From: Arenibacter sp. F26102
Lineage (GTDB): Bacteria; Bacteroidota; Bacteroidia; Flavobacteriales; Flavobacteriaceae
DNA: 64,000 nucleotides
NCBI RefSeq assembly: GCF_023015865.1
Contig: NZ_JALKBC010000007.1
Span: 124,001 to 188,000, forward strand
Reading direction: 5' to 3'
The position numbers were made by a program, and so were the translations under genes. Of the stretch, positions 5,885-26,573 are shown piece after piece; positions within the stretch are counted from its first letter, which is position 1; every line of letters begins with the position of its first letter. The notes beneath the pieces were generated by a model. That model saw only the letters and a list, made by a program, of their open reading frames with translations. It searched no databases and was not told the DNA's origin.

Positions 5885-6763
5885 TTAATAATATAAATCG
5901 TCCGTCCTAAGATTTAAGAAACGTTGTGTTGCGAAAAAAGTGCTTATGTATGAAATTAGGACCCCTAACCCGAAGACACTTGCAAAAAGAAATACCAAAA
6001 CCGTAGGGTCTTGAAAAAGGTTTAGCTCGGGAAAATTAATGTTTACATAGTAAACAACAAAGCCAAGGGCAATTAAGGCCAATATAGCCCCTAGAACGCC
6101 CAACTTAATATTGGTCCAAATAAATGGCCTCCGGATAAATGTTTTGGTGGCACCTACCATCTGCATAGTCTTTATTATAAAACGTTTGGAGTAAATGGAA
6201 AGACGGATGGAGCTATTGATCAATAATACCGCGATAAATGTAAAAATACCACTGGCCACTAAAATCCAAAAACTTAGTTTCTTTACATTATCGTTTAAGA
6301 GGGTAATCAAAGGTTTGTCATAGCTTACTTCTTCTATATAATCCTTGGTAGCAATTTCTTCTGCGATCTCAGCGATTTTATCTGTGGAAACATAATCTGC
6401 CTTTAATTGTACATCAATGGAATTTTTAAGGGGGTTGTATCCAAGGAAATCCAAAAAATTCTCCCCTATCTCAACACTGTGTTGTTCAGCAGCCTGTTCT
6501 TTGGAAACATAGGTGGCCTTTTTGGTATATTCTGCCATGGCCAGACTTTTTTGCAATTGGTCTACTTCCACTTCTTTGGCATTATCCTTAAGAAAAACGG
6601 ATATGGTAATTTGCTCCTTAAAATGATCGGCCAACTTTTTTGTGTTCAATACCAGAAGCCCCAAAATTCCCAATAAAAAAAGTACTAGTCCAATACTTAG
6701 GACTACTGAAAAATAGGAGGAAATCAGTTTTCTTTTTTGAAAACGTTCAAACGATGTGCTCAT
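5885..6763 (-). CDS. ftsX: Cell division protein FtsX
   Basis: A 292-residue ABC-transporter-like permease. It has a first membrane segment near residues 19-39, a periplasmic domain to about 165, and three further segments to the C-terminus, with the FtsX-typical cytoplasmic stretch IIKTMQMVGATKTFIRRPF. FtsX works with the ATPase FtsE to activate peptidoglycan hydrolases at the septum. No ftsE is next to it, which is usual in Bacteroidota. It is the first gene of the leftward operon with DUF3098, uppP and truB. I saw no convincing promoter box upstream. Confidence 0.93.
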   Translation of the reverse strand: MSTSFERFQKRKLISSYFSVVLSIGLVLFLLGILGLLVLNTKKLADHFKEQITISVFLKDNAKEVEVDQLQKSLAMAEYTKKATYVSKEQAAEQHSVEIGENFLDFLGYNPLKNSIDVQLKADYVSTDKIAEIAEEIATKDYIEEVSYDKPLITLLNDNVKKLSFWILVASGIFTFIAVLLINSSIRLSIYSKRFIIKTMQMVGATKTFIRRPFIWTNIKLGVLGAILALIALGFVVYYVNINFPELNLFQDPTVLVFLFASVFGLGVLISYISTFFATQRFLNLRTDDLYY

Positions 6764-7163
6764 AGTACAAAATCAATATGTAAAAATAGGAAAGTAAATT
6801 GAATTAAAAATAATTGTGACATTTTTCAGCCTTAATTAAAGTAATGCAGTGTAGTAAGCAGATCTTTGGGTTTATTTTTTGGTAAAAATCATCCTTATTA
6901 GTACAAAATGACCATTTCGGATTATGGTGTAAAGCATATTTAATAAAAGTACCGATATTAAAGCAGGTCCAAGAAGATTGATGTAATTTGGGAGAATATG
7001 ACATATTGGATTATGGCTATGTGGTCCTATGAATGTAGTTTTCAACCTTTGGCAGGTAAGTAGATAATATCTTTTCGCTTTCACAGATTAAACTTATTTT
7101 TGCCCTGCATTGGAAAATAAGGGGTGTGCTGTAGGTGCACTGGATTTAAATACAATAGATTAG
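6764..7163. other. Intergenic region between divergent ftsX and leuS
   Basis: About 400 AT-rich bases without a credible gene. Short open frames on the minus strand between 6804 and 7084 have no family resemblance and an unnatural composition. The only signal I can support is the leuS promoter at 7072-7102. The ftsX promoter must also lie here, but no clear TAnnTTTG box was found on that strand. Confidence 0.6.
7072..7102 (+). promoter_or_regulatory. Putative leuS promoter (Bacteroidota type)
   Basis: The -7 box TATTTTTG at 7095-7102 matches TAnnTTTG exactly. Nineteen bases upstream is TTTT (7072-7075), one mismatch from the -33 TTTG. The start codon follows about 60 bases later. Confidence 0.5.
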
Positions 7164-9989
7164 ATGACTTACGATTTCAGGAAGATAGAAGAAAAGTGGC
7201 AGAAATTTTGGGCGGAAAAACAAACCTTTAAGGCAGAAAATGATTCTCCAAAGGAAAAGTTTTATGTGTTGGACATGTTTCCGTATCCTTCCGGTGCCGG
7301 TTTGCACGTAGGGCATCCACTAGGGTATATAGCTAGTGATATTTATGCTCGTTATAAAAGACAAAAAGGATTTAACGTACTGCATCCAATGGGGTACGAT
7401 TCTTTTGGACTTCCTGCAGAACAATACGCAATTCAGACTGGACAACATCCTGCGATAACAACCGAGACCAACATTGGTAGATATCGGGAGCAATTGGACA
7501 AAATTGGTTTTTCTTTTGATTGGAGCAGGGAGGTACGTACCTCTGATCCCAACTATTACAAATGGACCCAATGGATCTTTATCCAACTCTTTAATTCTTG
7601 GTACAATAAGCAGGCCAATAAGGCTGAAGATATTTCTAATCTGATTGCCACTTTTGAAAAAGAAGGTAACCAAAATGTTAATGCGGTATGTGATGAGGAA
7701 GTGGTGGAATTCTCCGCAACCGAATGGCAGGCATTTACGCCAAAACAACAGCAAGAGATTTTATTACAATATAGATTGACATATTTGGCGGAAACCGAAG
7801 TCAATTGGTGTCCAGCATTAGGGACCGTTTTGGCTAATGATGAGATTGTTAACGGGGTTTCGGAGCGTGGTGGACACCCTGTGATCCGTAAAAAAATGAC
7901 GCAATGGAGTATGCGAATATCCGCCTATGCTCAGCGATTGCTGGATGATTTGGCAACGGTAGATTGGCCGCAACCGTTAAAGGATTCCCAGACCAACTGG
8001 ATCGGTAGGTCCGAGGGTGCAGAAGTAACATTTAAGGTGAAAGGAAATGAAGAGGTCATTGATGTTTTCACCACCCGTCCAGACACTATTTTTGGCGTGA
8101 GTTTTATGACTTTGGCTCCAGAGCATGAATTGGTAGCTAAAATAACTTCCCCTGAGCAGGAGGCTGAAGTAGCCGCATATATTGAGGCCACGGCCAAACG
8201 CAGTGAGCGCGATCGTATGGCAGATGTAAAGACCATTACTGGGGCATTTACCGGTGCTTATGCAGAACATCCATTTAGCAAGGAACCTATTCCGATTTGG
8301 ATAGGCGACTATGTTTTGGCAGGCTACGGTACCGGGGCGGTAATGTCCGTTCCCTGTGGTGATCAGCGCGATTATGACTTTGCAAAACATTTTAATATAT
8401 CTATCCCCAATATTTTTGAGGGTGTGGATATTTCCGAAGAGGCCTTTGCCGATAAGGAAAAGACGCTAATAACCAATTCAGATTTTTTAAATGGACTTCC
8501 ATATAAAAAAGCAGTTAAACGCGTCATTTTTGAATTGGAAAAATTAGGTCAAGGGGAAGGTAAAATAAACTACCGGTTGCGCGATGCCGTTTTTAGTCGC
8601 CAGCGCTATTGGGGAGAACCTTTTCCGGTCTACTACGTAGATGGAATGCCTCAAATGATCGATCAGGAGCATCTACCCATTGTACTTCCAGAGGTAGAGA
8701 AATACCTACCTACGGAAACTGGTGAGCCACCGTTGGGCAATGCCACTATTTGGGCATGGGATGTAAATAATTCGACAGTTGTCAGTAATAAATTAATAGA
8801 TCATAAATCCGTGTTTCCATTGGAGTTGAACACCATGCCAGGGTGGGCAGGAAGTTCGTACTACTTTAACCGCTATATGGATCCGAATAATGAGGACGAA
8901 ATATTTTCGCAGAAGGCCATAAATTATTGGCAGGATGTGGACCTTTATATTGGTGGTAGCGAGCATGCTACCGGACACTTACTATACTCCCGTTTCTGGC
9001 AAAAGTTTTTGTTCGACAAAGGGGTGGTGCCCAAACCCGAGTTTGCCAAAAAATTGATCAACCAAGGGATGATTACGGGGACCAGTGCTTTTGTTTATAG
9101 AATTGAAGGCGAAAACACCTTGGTTTCAAAAAACTTAATAGGTGATAGATCGGTACAGCCTCTTCATGTAGATGTGGCATTGGTAAACCCATCTGATGAA
9201 TTGGATGTGAAAAAATTCAAGGAAAATCCTCTTTATTCTGATTTGAAGGATGCCGAATTTCTGTTGGAGGAAGGGAAGTATATCGTAGGCCGCGAGGTAG
9301 AAAAAATGTCCAAATCCAAATACAATGTGGTGAGTCCGGATAGTATTTGTGAGGAGTATGGTGCAGATTCCCTGCGTTTGTACGAGATGTTCCTAGGTCC
9401 GTTGGAGCAGTCCAAGCCTTGGAATACAGCAGGAATCAGTGGGGTCTATAGTTTCCTAAAAAAAATGTGGCGTTTATACCACGGCGGGACAGAAGGTGCT
9501 TTTATGGTTACAGGTGCTGAACCATCGGCAGATAATTTAAAGACCCTGCATAAGACTATCAAGAAAGTGGAGGAGGACATAGAGAATTTCTCCTTTAACA
9601 CCTCGGTTGCTACCTTTATGATCTGTGTAAACGAGTTGGCAGCACAAAAATGTAGTAGCAAGGAAATATTGGAACCTTTGGTTGTCTTGGTCTCGTCTTA
9701 TGCCCCCCATATAGCGGAGGAGCTGTGGTCCAAGTTAGGACATAACACCTCTATTGCAACTTCTCCCTTTCCTAAATTTGAAGGCAAGTATTTGGTAGAA
9801 AGCAGTAAGGAATACCCCATTTCGTTCAACGGAAAAATGCGTTTCAAAATAGAGTTGCCGGTAGATCTTTCCAAAGAGGAAATTGAAGCTGCCGTCATGG
9901 CCCATGTTAAAACCCAGGAGCAGTTGCAGGGACGTGCCCCTAAAAAGGTAATTATTGTTCCAGGGAAGATCGTTAACATTGTAGGTTAA
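7164..9989 (+). CDS. leuS: Leucyl-tRNA synthetase
   Basis: A 941-residue class I aminoacyl-tRNA synthetase that charges tRNA-Leu. The ATP-binding HIGH motif is present as HVGHP (residues 48-52) in PYPSGAGLHVGHPLGY, and the second signature is KMSKS (714-718). The editing domain (CP1) lies between, with TTRPDTIFGVSF, GTGAVMSVPCGDQRDYDF and other conserved pieces. The C-terminus carries the tRNA-binding extension ending VIIVPGKIVNIVG. Length and the inserts after residue 150 fit the Bacteroidota form. The gene appears monocistronic. Confidence 0.98.
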   Translation: MTYDFRKIEEKWQKFWAEKQTFKAENDSPKEKFYVLDMFPYPSGAGLHVGHPLGYIASDIYARYKRQKGFNVLHPMGYDSFGLPAEQYAIQTGQHPAITTETNIGRYREQLDKIGFSFDWSREVRTSDPNYYKWTQWIFIQLFNSWYNKQANKAEDISNLIATFEKEGNQNVNAVCDEEVVEFSATEWQAFTPKQQQEILLQYRLTYLAETEVNWCPALGTVLANDEIVNGVSERGGHPVIRKKMTQWSMRISAYAQRLLDDLATVDWPQPLKDSQTNWIGRSEGAEVTFKVKGNEEVIDVFTTRPDTIFGVSFMTLAPEHELVAKITSPEQEAEVAAYIEATAKRSERDRMADVKTITGAFTGAYAEHPFSKEPIPIWIGDYVLAGYGTGAVMSVPCGDQRDYDFAKHFNISIPNIFEGVDISEEAFADKEKTLITNSDFLNGLPYKKAVKRVIFELEKLGQGEGKINYRLRDAVFSRQRYWGEPFPVYYVDGMPQMIDQEHLPIVLPEVEKYLPTETGEPPLGNATIWAWDVNNSTVVSNKLIDHKSVFPLELNTMPGWAGSSYYFNRYMDPNNEDEIFSQKAINYWQDVDLYIGGSEHATGHLLYSRFWQKFLFDKGVVPKPEFAKKLINQGMITGTSAFVYRIEGENTLVSKNLIGDRSVQPLHVDVALVNPSDELDVKKFKENPLYSDLKDAEFLLEEGKYIVGREVEKMSKSKYNVVSPDSICEEYGADSLRLYEMFLGPLEQSKPWNTAGISGVYSFLKKMWRLYHGGTEGAFMVTGAEPSADNLKTLHKTIKKVEEDIENFSFNTSVATFMICVNELAAQKCSSKEILEPLVVLVSSYAPHIAEELWSKLGHNTSIATSPFPKFEGKYLVESSKEYPISFNGKMRFKIELPVDLSKEEIEAAVMAHVKTQEQLQGRAPKKVIIVPGKIVNIVG

Positions 9990-22859: not shown

Positions 22860-25800
22860 ATGAATCCACAACAATACATCAAAGTAGTATATTACATATT
22901 CATTGCTTTCTTTATTAATGCATGTGCTACCTATTCCCCCCAATTTGCAGAATCGGTTCCGGTACAGTTACCCTCGTCTGACACTAAAGATATTTTGCAT
23001 ACGATTTATATTGCCGGAGGGTTCGGAAATAAAGGAAAGGGTGAATCTGGAGGAACACAGAATCTTCTTGCTTCTGCACTCGAAAGTGCACCGGAGGAAA
23101 GTACCCTATTTTTCACGGGAGATAATATATCTGAAAAGGAAGGAGCTTGGAGCACGGACAAAGACTTGTTGGATGAGCAGATTAAACTGTTGGACAATTT
23201 TATGGGGAAAACCATTTTTCTTCCGGGTAATAATGAATGGAAGGATTTCGATTCCGATAAGGTTGAAAAAATAGAGGATTATATCAAGGATTTGGAAAAG
23301 GATAAAATCAGTTTTTATCCAGAGAATGCGTGCCCATTAGAGCATATTGAGATCAATGATAAACTAGATATAATTGTGTTGGATTCCAAGTGGTTCATCT
23401 CCAATTGGTCACGTGTAAAGGACATAAATAAAAAGTGTACCGATATTAATACTAGAAGAAGGTTTCTTGAGGAATTGGAAGGTTATATCAACGATGGCCA
23501 GGATAAAAATATCGTAATTGCCATGCACCACCCTATATTTAGTAATGGTAAATATGCGGGAATGGAAAGTTTTAAAAGCCATATAACCCCTATACCAGTT
23601 CTGGGAACAGTTATGAATGGTATTGCGGATTTAGGTGCTTTTTCTCCAGAGCTTTTGAATTCGAGACGTTACAATTACCTTAGGATCCTGGTTAGCGCTT
23701 TAGCCAAAGCTTCCGATAGGATTACTATTGTTTCCGGTCATGAAGAGAGTTTGCAATATCTCACAGGTGGCGGCATACATCAGGTGATCGGTGGATCCCT
23801 TTTTCAAAAAACACCGACTAAATTGGGTGCGGATAAAATTACCACCATTGGGGGGTCGTTGGATTTTGAAGGCAAATACACCCATGGTGCAAAAGGGTTC
23901 GCTAAACTGGAATATTTCAAGGATGGCTCGTCAAAAGTCACTTTTATAAGTGAGGGAGATGATGAGAACACTATAAACATACTTCCGAAATTGGACAAAG
24001 AAAGTACGCCACATAATTTTCCTTTAATTACCGATAGAACCATGAAGGATGCAGTTACCGATGATAAGGAGGAATTGAACAGATCGGGCTTCTATAAGTT
24101 TTTATGGGGAGAACGGTATAGAAACTATTTTGGCACATCGGTGACCGCCCCTATAGCTTATTTGGATACACTTTATGGAGGGTTAAAGGTAACCAAGGAA
24201 GGTGGGGGCCATCAATCTTACTCCATTCGTTTGGAAGATAATAACGGTAAGGAATTTTCAATGCGTTCCCTTCGTAAAAATGCACTGAAGTTCCTTAAGT
24301 TTAAAGTTAAAGGAATTGCCTTCGAAGAAAATGACTATAAGGATACTTGGACAGAAGAAGTAATATCGGATTTCTTTACCACAGCGCATCCGTATATGCA
24401 ATTGGTCATAAATCCTTTGGCTCGGGCGGTAAACGTCAACCATTCCAGTCCAAGTCTTTTTTATATCCCTAAACAGGAACGTCTCGGCGACCTAAATGAG
24501 CAATTTGGGAATGAACTCTATTTTGTTGAAGAGCGCCCTTCGGACGAACAAACAAATTTTAAAGGTTATAGGCGGACTATCGATGAGTCTGGAAAAATGA
24601 AGGAGATGGAGAGTACTACGGACATATTGGAAAAAATTAGTGGTGATGAATCCTATACTATAGACCAAAGGGATTTTATAAGAGCCCGTATTTTTGATAT
24701 GCTCATAGGGGATTGGGATAGGCACCAAGATCAATGGCGTTGGGCTGAATATGAGAAAAAGGATGGCGATAAGGAATTTTTACCTATTCCTAGGGACAGG
24801 GACAACGCCTTTCCCAAATTTGACGGTTTCGCCATGAAAGCTATTAAGCTTTTTGTCCCGGATGCACGTCGCTGGCAATCATATGGTCCAGAAATTAATG
24901 ACGTAAAATGGTTGAATATAGGAGGGAACAGGTTAGATCGTGCGTTGTTGACCCAGTATGATGCCAAGGTGTGGGAGGATGAGGCCCGGTTTATTCAAGA
25001 TAAACTTTCAGAAGAGGAAATAGACGCGGCATTTATAAAATTACCCACGGAGGTGCAAGACAGTACTGCCAATGCCATCAAAGAAAATTTAAAATTGAGG
25101 CTGGCCAATCTGCCTAAATACGCAAAACAATATGCGGATTATTTGGACAATATAGTGACCCTGCACGGTACAGAAAAGGATGATCAAGTTGTAATTACCA
25201 GACTGCCGGAAGGTAAGACCAAGGTAGTTCTCAGAAGGTTGTTGAGCGATAAAACTAATGAACTGATGTTCGAACGGACATTTGAGAGTAAAAAAACCAA
25301 GGAGATATGGATTTATGGTCTTGGAGATGATGATGTATTTGAAGTTTCCGGTGAAGGAGACAACGAAATATTTATACGATTGGTTGGTGGCTACGGTAAG
25401 GAAACTTATAACATTACAAATAGTAAAAGCTTAAAAGTCTATGATTGGAAGCACGAGGAAATTAAGTTCGAAGAAAAGAAACCGAGGCATCAGCTTACCG
25501 ATGTTTATGAGACCAATACTTTTCATTGGCGCTTTTTAGAGCAGAACAGCAATGTTTTTCTTCCGGCAATAGGGTTTAGAACCGATGACGGCTTTTATAT
25601 AGGGGCTAAAAACACCTATTTAAATCGGGGATTCAACGGACATGATTTTAGACAGAAACATATCGTAGGGGCAAATTATTACTTCCTGTTTAAGGCATTG
25701 GAGCTTTCTTATCAAGGGGTTTATGCCAATATAATTCCCAAATGGAATTTTGAATTGGACGGATATTACGCTACCAATAGGTTTTCCAATAATTATTTTG

Positions 25801-26573
25801 GTATCGGAAATGAAACCTTTAATCTCGAAGATGATTTGGGTCGGGATTATTATCGTGCCAGGATGCAAAAAATCCAACTTAACGCAGGTATTGCTTATCA
25901 CACGTTGAAGATAAAGGCCTTATTTGAATCCTTTAAGTTAAAGGAGTTGGAAGATCGCTTTTTTGTTCCCTCCAATCTGAATCCACAGATTTTTGAATCC
26001 CAGAATTATGTGGGTGCGGAGACCTCCGCATATTACAAAAACGACGATGCCGATGATTTTCCTACCAAGGCACTTTATTTGGGCTTAACCGTTGGTTACA
26101 AATTAAATACTCAAATGGCGGATAATCAATTTGGATATTTCGCATTTAAAGCGGGAATGAGTCATAAGCTTATTCCGTCAGGAGACGTGGTTCTGGGTAC
26201 AACAGCCGAATATAAGACGAATATTGGCGGAGGCGATTACTTTTTTTACCATGCACCTACCCTCGGAGGAACTAACGGACTTCGTGGGTTTCGGGATGAG
26301 AGATTTGCCGGTCACTCTTATTTTTATCAGACATCAGACCTTAGATTTAGGATTAAGAAATATGCCACTGCAGTAGCACCTGTAACCTTGGGCGTTTTTG
26401 GTGGTTTTGATTATGGTAGGGTGTGGGAGCGTAACGATTCCAGTAATCGTTGGCATACATCACAAGGTGGGGGTCTGTGGATCAGTGGATTTAATTTTCT
26501 GTCTTTCAATGTAGGATACTTTAATTCCGTAGAGGGCAATATGGTACAAATAGGTTTCGGATTCGGTTTTTGA
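22860..26573 (+). CDS. Large outer-membrane protein: degenerate phosphoesterase + kinase-like centre + beta-barrel
   Basis: A 1237-residue protein with at least three parts. A lipoprotein-type signal ends in INAC (Cys22). Residues 45-380 follow the calcineurin-like phosphoesterase pattern but with altered metal sites: AGGFG (52-56) where GDxG is expected, GNNEW (123-127) for GNHDW, GHEES (293-297) for GHxH; GDN (87-89) and HHP (223-225) remain. The middle holds GDWDRHQDQWRW (from 617) and PRDRDNAF (RDRD around 645-648), spaced like the catalytic loop and metal-binding Asp of atypical kinases (HipA/CotH/FAM20-like). From about 900 the sequence alternates aromatic and polar strands, with the Omp85-type GGTNGLRGFRDERF, and ends in VQIGFGFGF, as in surface-antigen barrels. 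Similar long proteins in Bacteroidota are usually annotated metallophosphoesterase. Function unknown. Confidence 0.75.
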   Translation: MNPQQYIKVVYYIFIAFFINACATYSPQFAESVPVQLPSSDTKDILHTIYIAGGFGNKGKGESGGTQNLLASALESAPEESTLFFTGDNISEKEGAWSTDKDLLDEQIKLLDNFMGKTIFLPGNNEWKDFDSDKVEKIEDYIKDLEKDKISFYPENACPLEHIEINDKLDIIVLDSKWFISNWSRVKDINKKCTDINTRRRFLEELEGYINDGQDKNIVIAMHHPIFSNGKYAGMESFKSHITPIPVLGTVMNGIADLGAFSPELLNSRRYNYLRILVSALAKASDRITIVSGHEESLQYLTGGGIHQVIGGSLFQKTPTKLGADKITTIGGSLDFEGKYTHGAKGFAKLEYFKDGSSKVTFISEGDDENTINILPKLDKESTPHNFPLITDRTMKDAVTDDKEELNRSGFYKFLWGERYRNYFGTSVTAPIAYLDTLYGGLKVTKEGGGHQSYSIRLEDNNGKEFSMRSLRKNALKFLKFKVKGIAFEENDYKDTWTEEVISDFFTTAHPYMQLVINPLARAVNVNHSSPSLFYIPKQERLGDLNEQFGNELYFVEERPSDEQTNFKGYRRTIDESGKMKEMESTTDILEKISGDESYTIDQRDFIRARIFDMLIGDWDRHQDQWRWAEYEKKDGDKEFLPIPRDRDNAFPKFDGFAMKAIKLFVPDARRWQSYGPEINDVKWLNIGGNRLDRALLTQYDAKVWEDEARFIQDKLSEEEIDAAFIKLPTEVQDSTANAIKENLKLRLANLPKYAKQYADYLDNIVTLHGTEKDDQVVITRLPEGKTKVVLRRLLSDKTNELMFERTFESKKTKEIWIYGLGDDDVFEVSGEGDNEIFIRLVGGYGKETYNITNSKSLKVYDWKHEEIKFEEKKPRHQLTDVYETNTFHWRFLEQNSNVFLPAIGFRTDDGFYIGAKNTYLNRGFNGHDFRQKHIVGANYYFLFKALELSYQGVYANIIPKWNFELDGYYATNRFSNNYFGIGNETFNLEDDLGRDYYRARMQKIQLNAGIAYHTLKIKALFESFKLKELEDRFFVPSNLNPQIFESQNYVGAETSAYYKNDDADDFPTKALYLGLTVGYKLNTQMADNQFGYFAFKAGMSHKLIPSGDVVLGTTAEYKTNIGGGDYFFYHAPTLGGTNGLRGFRDERFAGHSYFYQTSDLRFRIKKYATAVAPVTLGVFGGFDYGRVWERNDSSNRWHTSQGGGLWISGFNFLSFNVGYFNSVEGNMVQIGFGFGF

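Follow-up and report, generated by a model that had tools for sequence, protein, structure and literature searches.

Does an outer-membrane protein of the kind filed as a metallophosphoesterase also carry a kinase? The question is raised by one gene in the window, by which we mean the whole stretch of 64,000 nucleotides analyzed here (contig NZ_JALKBC010000007.1 of the flavobacterium Arenibacter sp. F26102). Its product, whose nearest named relative is from Arenibacter arenosicollis (93% identity), had been read from the sequence in a preliminary description as a decayed phosphoesterase joined to a kinase-like center and an Omp85 barrel. Our analysis keeps this order of parts (for coordinates, see Table 1). 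When residues 40–1237 are modeled as one chain, the predicted structure has a predicted local distance difference test score (pLDDT) of 86.7 and a predicted template modeling score (pTM) of 0.81. The two motifs from which the kinase was first proposed, GDWDRHQDQWRW and PRDRDNAF, stand where they were described, with 24 residues from D620 to P644.

The middle domain very probably has a kinase fold. Its AlphaFold2 model, built from residues 395–790 with 80 homologs (pLDDT 90.0, pTM 0.90), begins with three strands, the first two joined by a glycine-rich turn, and continues with a helix and a mostly helical C-terminal part. A Foldseek search of the PDB with this model gave 365 matches at E ≤ 10, and the 13 at E ≤ 0.001 are all titled CtkA, HipA, pHipA, or "MDT protein" (3dnu and 3dnt, which we take to be HipA). 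Next among the 50 best of the 365, amid other kinases, come Fam20C (4kqa, E = 0.013) and PI4KII (8a5x, E = 0.019). What had been a pattern match has thus gained a predicted fold. A profile of 34 diverse members of the middle-domain family, compared with PDB sequences, also has CtkA as its top match (E = 0.0076), the GDWDRHxxQW loop being aligned with GNFDRHNGNWGF. It is because of the predicted fold and this loop alignment, both together, that we assign the domain to the kinases.

The residues that a kinase would need are strongly conserved. We aligned 82 sequences, consisting of the two full-length copies of this genome and 80 loci, with identity down to 37% (one sequence, L030, is without part of the barrel). 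D620, R621, H622, Q625, D646, R647, D648, R469, and K473 are each present in 82 out of 82, and because they are kept over such distances, the catalytic motifs are not a chance pattern. G448, G449, G450, and Q452 are each found in 79 out of 79, and residues 617–628 are among the most conserved stretches of the protein. Among the 34 rows of the diverse alignment the counts are 30 for D620 and H622, 33 for Q625, D648, R469, and K473, and 34 for D646. The same comparison separates the two enzyme-like parts: the DRH and DxD motifs are invariant in the 82 sequences, and the phosphoesterase residues differ by clade. Neither of the outcomes that the preliminary description named as speaking against a kinase thus appeared: the middle region is not predicted to lack the fold, and none of these 82 homologs lacks the motifs.

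Several observations weigh against a kinase. The match to CtkA is structurally modest (TM-score 0.37 by query and 0.50 by target; root-mean-square deviation 8.4 Å), and no Pfam kinase family (Fam20C, HipA_C, or CotH) reaches its cutoff; the window protein matches only Fam20C, at 11.5 versus 26.8 bits. Families that seem to match by chance score as well or better (EnY2 in 9 of 81 members, best E = 3.8e-4; DUF1598 in 4 of 34, best E = 0.0014). In hhalign comparisons with local alignments, HipA (P = 0.22) does worse than the phosphoesterase control (P = 0.03). In HipA and CtkA the fifth residue beyond the catalytic Asp is Asn, and kinases usually have Lys on the third strand of the N-lobe; here these places hold Gln625 and Arg469, both in 82 out of 82, the latter place being judged from predicted secondary structure. 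The catalytic DRH is lost in 4 of the 34 diverse rows and in 4 of 28 matches at loci chosen for members of the class with 800–1000 codons. Finally, we know of no periplasmic ATP pool.

These last points are also what would be expected if the domain had a kinase fold without phosphorylating anything, being instead a nucleotide sensor, AMPylator, or glutamylase type that binds nucleotide or sugar and controls the barrel: two standard positions differ, D620 or H622 is absent from some relatives, and no ATP supply outside the cytoplasm is known to us. However, D620, H622, D646, and D648 are invariant in the 82 closer relatives, and at five loci (L118, L119, L133, L218, and L221) an intact copy adjoins one that has lost the site. 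Arg at the Lys place also has a precedent in the conserved Lani_1194 kinase family (PMC9758233). We regard a nonphosphorylating domain as unlikely and lean toward one that is catalytically active.

Taken alone, the sequence evidence for a kinase is weak. A PDB search with a single sequence gave no match at E ≤ 10. Pfam Fam20C is touched by 29 out of 81 single members (best E = 7.7e-4), HipA_C by 3 out of 81 (best E = 0.0068), and CotH by 1 out of 34 (E = 0.015). Across 198 genomes, Fam20C has no match above its cutoff, and the matches at E ≤ 1, in 32 genomes, are mainly short or stop-containing open reading frames (ORFs); the best of the 34 listed (E = 4.8e-4) is a member of the middle-domain family, and the window gene has E = 0.064. 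Only the CotH alignment (P = 0.0029) falls below every hhalign control (besides the phosphoesterase, the barrel at 0.45 and reversed sequences at 0.44 and 0.59), and the hhalign result is no basis for the kinase assignment. The candidate-defense family PDC-M03A of PADLOC, probably another kinase-like family, matches residues 603–675 in the catalytic-loop region (window positions 24666–24884; E = 2.8e-5). The seven matches in a viral library at E ≤ 1e-3 comprise three named kinases, one transferase, one ADP-ribosyltransferase, and two uncharacterized proteins.

The domain ahead of the kinase-like part resembles the purple acid phosphatases: the family profile matches TRAP5 (2bq8, tartrate-resistant purple acid phosphatase; E = 2.6e-4) over positions 252–328. 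The genome carries a full-length paralog (L002, 39% identity) in which the phosphoesterase motifs are intact and which meets the Pfam threshold for PF00149 (E = 1.7e-11). The preliminary description had noted G54, N125, and E296 as changed metal positions and GDN and HHP as kept; the paralog indeed has D, H, and H at the three places, and the two motifs are seen at residues 87–89 and 223–225. D88, N124, H223, H224, and H294 are likewise kept, and there are two further changes, Y91 to S and D126 to E. The window protein is thus without the full PF00149 set of metal ligands and catalytic His, having lost D54, Y91, H125, and H296, all of which the paralog retains.

This division runs through the family. 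Ligands could be counted in 79 rows, the 82 minus L015 and L027, in which the choice of start trimmed the N terminus, and L030, which is cut by its contig. All ligands are intact in 31 rows, including L002, and altered in 48. The intact clade keeps the D, D/Y, N-H, H, and H-H motifs of TRAP5. In the altered rows D54 has become G in 47, Y91 S or T in 45, H125 N in 44, and H296 E in 41. Residues still found in these rows are D88 (44), H223 (45), H224 (47), H294 (all 48), and N124 (34). Under the ligand scheme that we assume for purple acid phosphatases, the lost residues make up one metal site plus the catalytic His and the kept ones mostly the other site; N124 is the weak point of this interpretation.

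We built a tree from the kinase part alone, with 95 rows; the program gives a long-branch warning for the distant ones. A single branch, supported at 100/100, separates the 49 rows with an altered site, the pseudo clade, from the rest, requiring one change versus 31.9 in shuffles. Support for a branch that sets the intact group apart is lower, at 67/49. Out of 34 pseudo-clade pairs that are >80% identical, 13 are saturated, and most of the others have a synonymous divergence (dS) >1. The ratio of nonsynonymous to synonymous divergence (dN/dS) in the phosphoesterase part is 0.046–0.104 in 20 of the 21 pairs with a value, the remaining, near-identical pair giving 0.73 (dS 0.01), and among the six pairs with dS <1, five have values of 0.07–0.10. 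Purifying selection thus rejects a neutral relic, and the single branch at 100/100 rejects repeated loss of the ligands. Loss on one branch and low dN/dS therefore most likely mean that the metal site was lost once and that the altered domain is still needed. "Decayed" is too simple a word, because the loss happened a single time, within one clade, and purifying selection still acts on the domain.

The last third of the protein was described as an Omp85 barrel, and three lines of evidence agree with this. NCBIfam Omp85_fam matches at E = 2.1e-12 (47 bits, under its 200-bit cutoff), we count 16 predicted strands of at least eight residues in the C-terminal part of the model, and BamA (E = 6.7e-10) and TamA are among the PDB matches of the full-length model. 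The 50 best PDB matches of that model are all Omp85-type or mitochondrial SAM barrels, the phosphoesterase part not being among them. By eye, the barrel contains LRGF, presumably a VRGF-type signature. We saw no POTRA domain: predicted secondary structure has only strands at residues ~765–880. Omp85 subfamilies without POTRA exist (PMC4104836).

A PF00149 domain ahead of an Omp85 barrel has been published, as the "Metallo" subfamily of Heinz and Lithgow (2014), possibly the same protein group as ours. Those authors call PF00149 a metalloprotease, unlike Pfam, whose name for it is calcineurin-like phosphoesterase, and the word "kinase" is absent from the main text (PMC4104836). Among the top-ranked papers of a literature search that reached few subscription journals, we found no published kinase domain in phosphoesterase–Omp85 proteins, and neither "kinase" nor "phosphoesterase" occurs in the accessible text of PMC12611786 and PMC12045153. 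A fusion of this kind is therefore known, and the kinase-like domain is apparently undescribed.

What the barrel does for the enzymes ahead of it admits more than one answer. PlpD, a patatin–Omp85 protein of type Vd, has the same order of an enzyme followed by an Omp85 barrel (PMC4104836), and the barrel might in the same way thread its own phosphoesterase–kinase passenger to the cell surface, making the kinase extracellular. PlpD differs in its enzyme, and the window protein has no POTRA visible in the model and a lipoprotein-like start; a lipidated N terminus would tether the passenger to the membrane. Moreover, barrel-less relatives have the appearance of inner-membrane proteins or anchored lipoproteins, so export of the kinase does not depend on the barrel. 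We consider self-export distinctly unlikely. Alternatively, the protein could be mainly a factor for outer-membrane assembly or translocation, with the enzyme-like front as a structural scaffold, which would suit the general Omp85 role proposed for undescribed subfamilies (PMC4104836). The strong conservation of residues 617–628 and the existence of the kinase domain without any barrel speak against a mere scaffold, and we think it very unlikely.

The third copy of the middle region in this genome (L003, 429 residues) is itself of this barrel-less kind, consisting of nothing but a membrane segment at the N terminus and the middle domain. We found the domain in 143 out of 395 sampled Bacteroidota genomes and in 74 out of 171 genera. 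Among the 150 matches listed, 98 lie in ORFs of at least 1100 codons, 37 in ORFs of 800–1000, nine in ORFs of 500–640, and six in ORFs of 420–440. The ORFs that we inspected have four architectures: phosphoesterase–kinase–barrel, kinase–barrel behind a signal that looks cleavable, kinase on a lipoprotein, and kinase with a membrane anchor. The kinase domain is thus not peculiar to the phosphoesterase–barrel fusion, occurring both without a phosphoesterase and without a barrel.

Export appears common to these forms. Of the 23 ORFs inspected, 22 have a hydrophobic, export-type N-terminal segment, and the exception (L129) starts near a contig end; in L119 6439–8151 the segment lies 48 residues in, the start having probably been called too early. 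The lipoprotein signal of the preliminary description fits by eye (FFINAC(22)ATYSP), but the Pfam lipobox model has no match in the window protein and only a weak one in the paralog (E = 0.24). By a loose pattern, 57 out of 79 relatives have a lipobox-like start.

Taken together, we favor, with some reserve, the following scheme as a whole, nucleotidyl transfer being counted within it. The Omp85-type barrel would hold a member of a Bacteroidota family of kinases like HipA, CtkA, FAM20, or CotH outside the cytoplasm, in the outer membrane; we infer a periplasmic rather than a surface placement. The kinase would bind nucleotide through the glycine-rich loop and R469/K473, with D620 as the proposed catalytic base and D646 (with D648) as the proposed metal-binding residues, and would modify a secreted substrate, or one in the cell envelope, with a phosphate or perhaps a nucleotidyl group. 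The purple-acid-phosphatase-type domain would ancestrally have been a functional phosphoesterase in fusion with the kinase, one protein thus being both writer and eraser, and in the pseudo clade it would now act as a binding or regulatory module.

None of the closest known systems has all these parts. CtkA (of Helicobacter pylori) and HipA, the best structural matches, are cytoplasmic or effector kinases, whereas the window protein is predicted to be exported and combines its kinase-like domain with a phosphoesterase part and a barrel. The secreted FAM20 and CotH kinases share the extracytoplasmic placement and give weak profile matches, but the family cutoffs are missed here, with no member-level match to either. 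Bacteroidota may phosphorylate targets outside the cytoplasm. If the kinase is active, their envelope proteins, glycans, or lipids would be phosphorylated after export, and the donor of the phosphate would become a question where no ATP pool is known to us. Many proteins filed as metallophosphoesterases could then be tested as writers, as erasers, or as pseudo-versions of either, and Omp85 biology would gain a further enzyme-fused branch.

Table 1. Features of the window gene (window positions) and of genes at related loci (positions at each locus)
Feature	Residues	Position	Strand	Remarks
Whole gene, ATG start	1237 plus stop	22860–26573	+	Lipoprotein-like start, purple-acid-phosphatase-type domain, kinase-like domain, beta linker, Omp85 barrel
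Lipoprotein-like signal	1–22 (Cys22)	22860–22925	+	By eye: hydrophobic core, then FINAC
Purple-acid-phosphatase-type domain	~45–385	22992–24014	+	G54, S91, N125, E296 replace D, Y, H, H
Kinase-like domain	~400–764	24057–25151	+	AlphaFold2 model; Foldseek matches to CtkA/HipA
Glycine-rich loop GGGHQS	448–453	24201–24218	+	Between two predicted strands
R469-SLR-K473	469–473	24264–24278	+	Third predicted N-lobe strand; Arg at usual kinase Lys place
Putative catalytic-loop motif GDWDRHQDQWRW	617–628	24708–24743	+	Aligned by profile with GNFDRHNGNWGF of CtkA (3akj)
Putative metal-binding motif PRDRDNAF	644–651	24789–24812	+	D646, R647, D648 invariant
Beta-only linker	~765–880	25152–25499	+	Predicted secondary structure; usual POTRA place in Omp85 proteins
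Omp85 beta-barrel	~890–1237	25527–26573	+	Profile match, model, structural match
Divergent DRH/SRR pairs		L118 5498–7108 / 7226–8854; L133 4433–6055 / 6192–7778; L119 4756–6378 / 6439–8151
Barrel-class members with lost catalytic residues		L218 5609–10822; L221 2476–7690; L132 4558–7131; L228 4805–7372
PycTM examples		L128 10691–11881; L127 10002–11219; L018 9754–10965
CotH-type proteins		L214 3499–4629; L215 8590–9708; L216 2332–3462; L221 45–707 and 7724–9085

Some relatives that have lost catalytic residues stand beside intact ones. In three genomes of one genus, genes for lipoprotein-like kinases form divergent neighbor pairs, one member with DRH and the other with SRR, likely a kinase and a pseudokinase. 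Such neighbors bring to mind the pairing of Fam20C and the pseudokinase Fam20A (PMC7948968). Around members of the 800–1000-codon class we examined 28 matches in 25 loci; DRH and DRD are intact in 24 and lost in L132, L228, L218 8237–10822, and L221 2476–5115, the last two standing in tandem with an intact copy.

A PycTM gene (PF18967, Pycsar effector TM) lies near middle-domain genes in 45 out of 100 loci; all neighbor counts are raw lower bounds, with flanks of differing length. At pseudo loci PycTM is within 400 bp in 22 out of 50, in 21 cases 11–55 bp downstream and in the same orientation, and at the remaining locus, L042, it adjoins a second copy there. At intact loci it is within 400 bp in 10 out of 31, nine times divergent, and five more are divergent within 2 kb. 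PycTM likewise comes 88 bp after L003, the stand-alone gene, and occurs in 8 of the 25 loci of the 800–1000-codon class. No PycTM lies beside 25 of 50 pseudo, 13 of 31 intact, and 16 of 18 other loci, or beside the window's own gene. An HD domain was detected in two out of three PycTM representatives scanned, the one beside L003 being the exception. Because the arrangements differ between lines, we infer a functional tie between the two genes rather than an inherited order. A nucleotide-handling HD-PycTM membrane protein could couple phosphorylation outside the cytoplasm to the cytoplasm. Bacteroidota might then own an extracytoplasmic phosphorylation system, with a widespread family of exported kinases (fused to barrels in the outer membrane, carried by lipoproteins, or set in the inner membrane), an ancestral eraser in the same chain, pseudokinase partners, and this tie to HD-PycTM, a proposal that we put forward tentatively, as possible rather than probable.

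Two further kinds of neighbor were seen. A DUF2652 gene (e.g., L006 2492–3097), whose start resembles a class III cyclase by eye, lies near middle-domain genes in 29 out of 100 loci. CotH-type proteins lie near kinase–barrel genes in 4 out of 25 loci, a biased count in that L214 and L215 were chosen on a prior hint; judged by sequence, two kinds of putative exported, atypical kinase are here close together.

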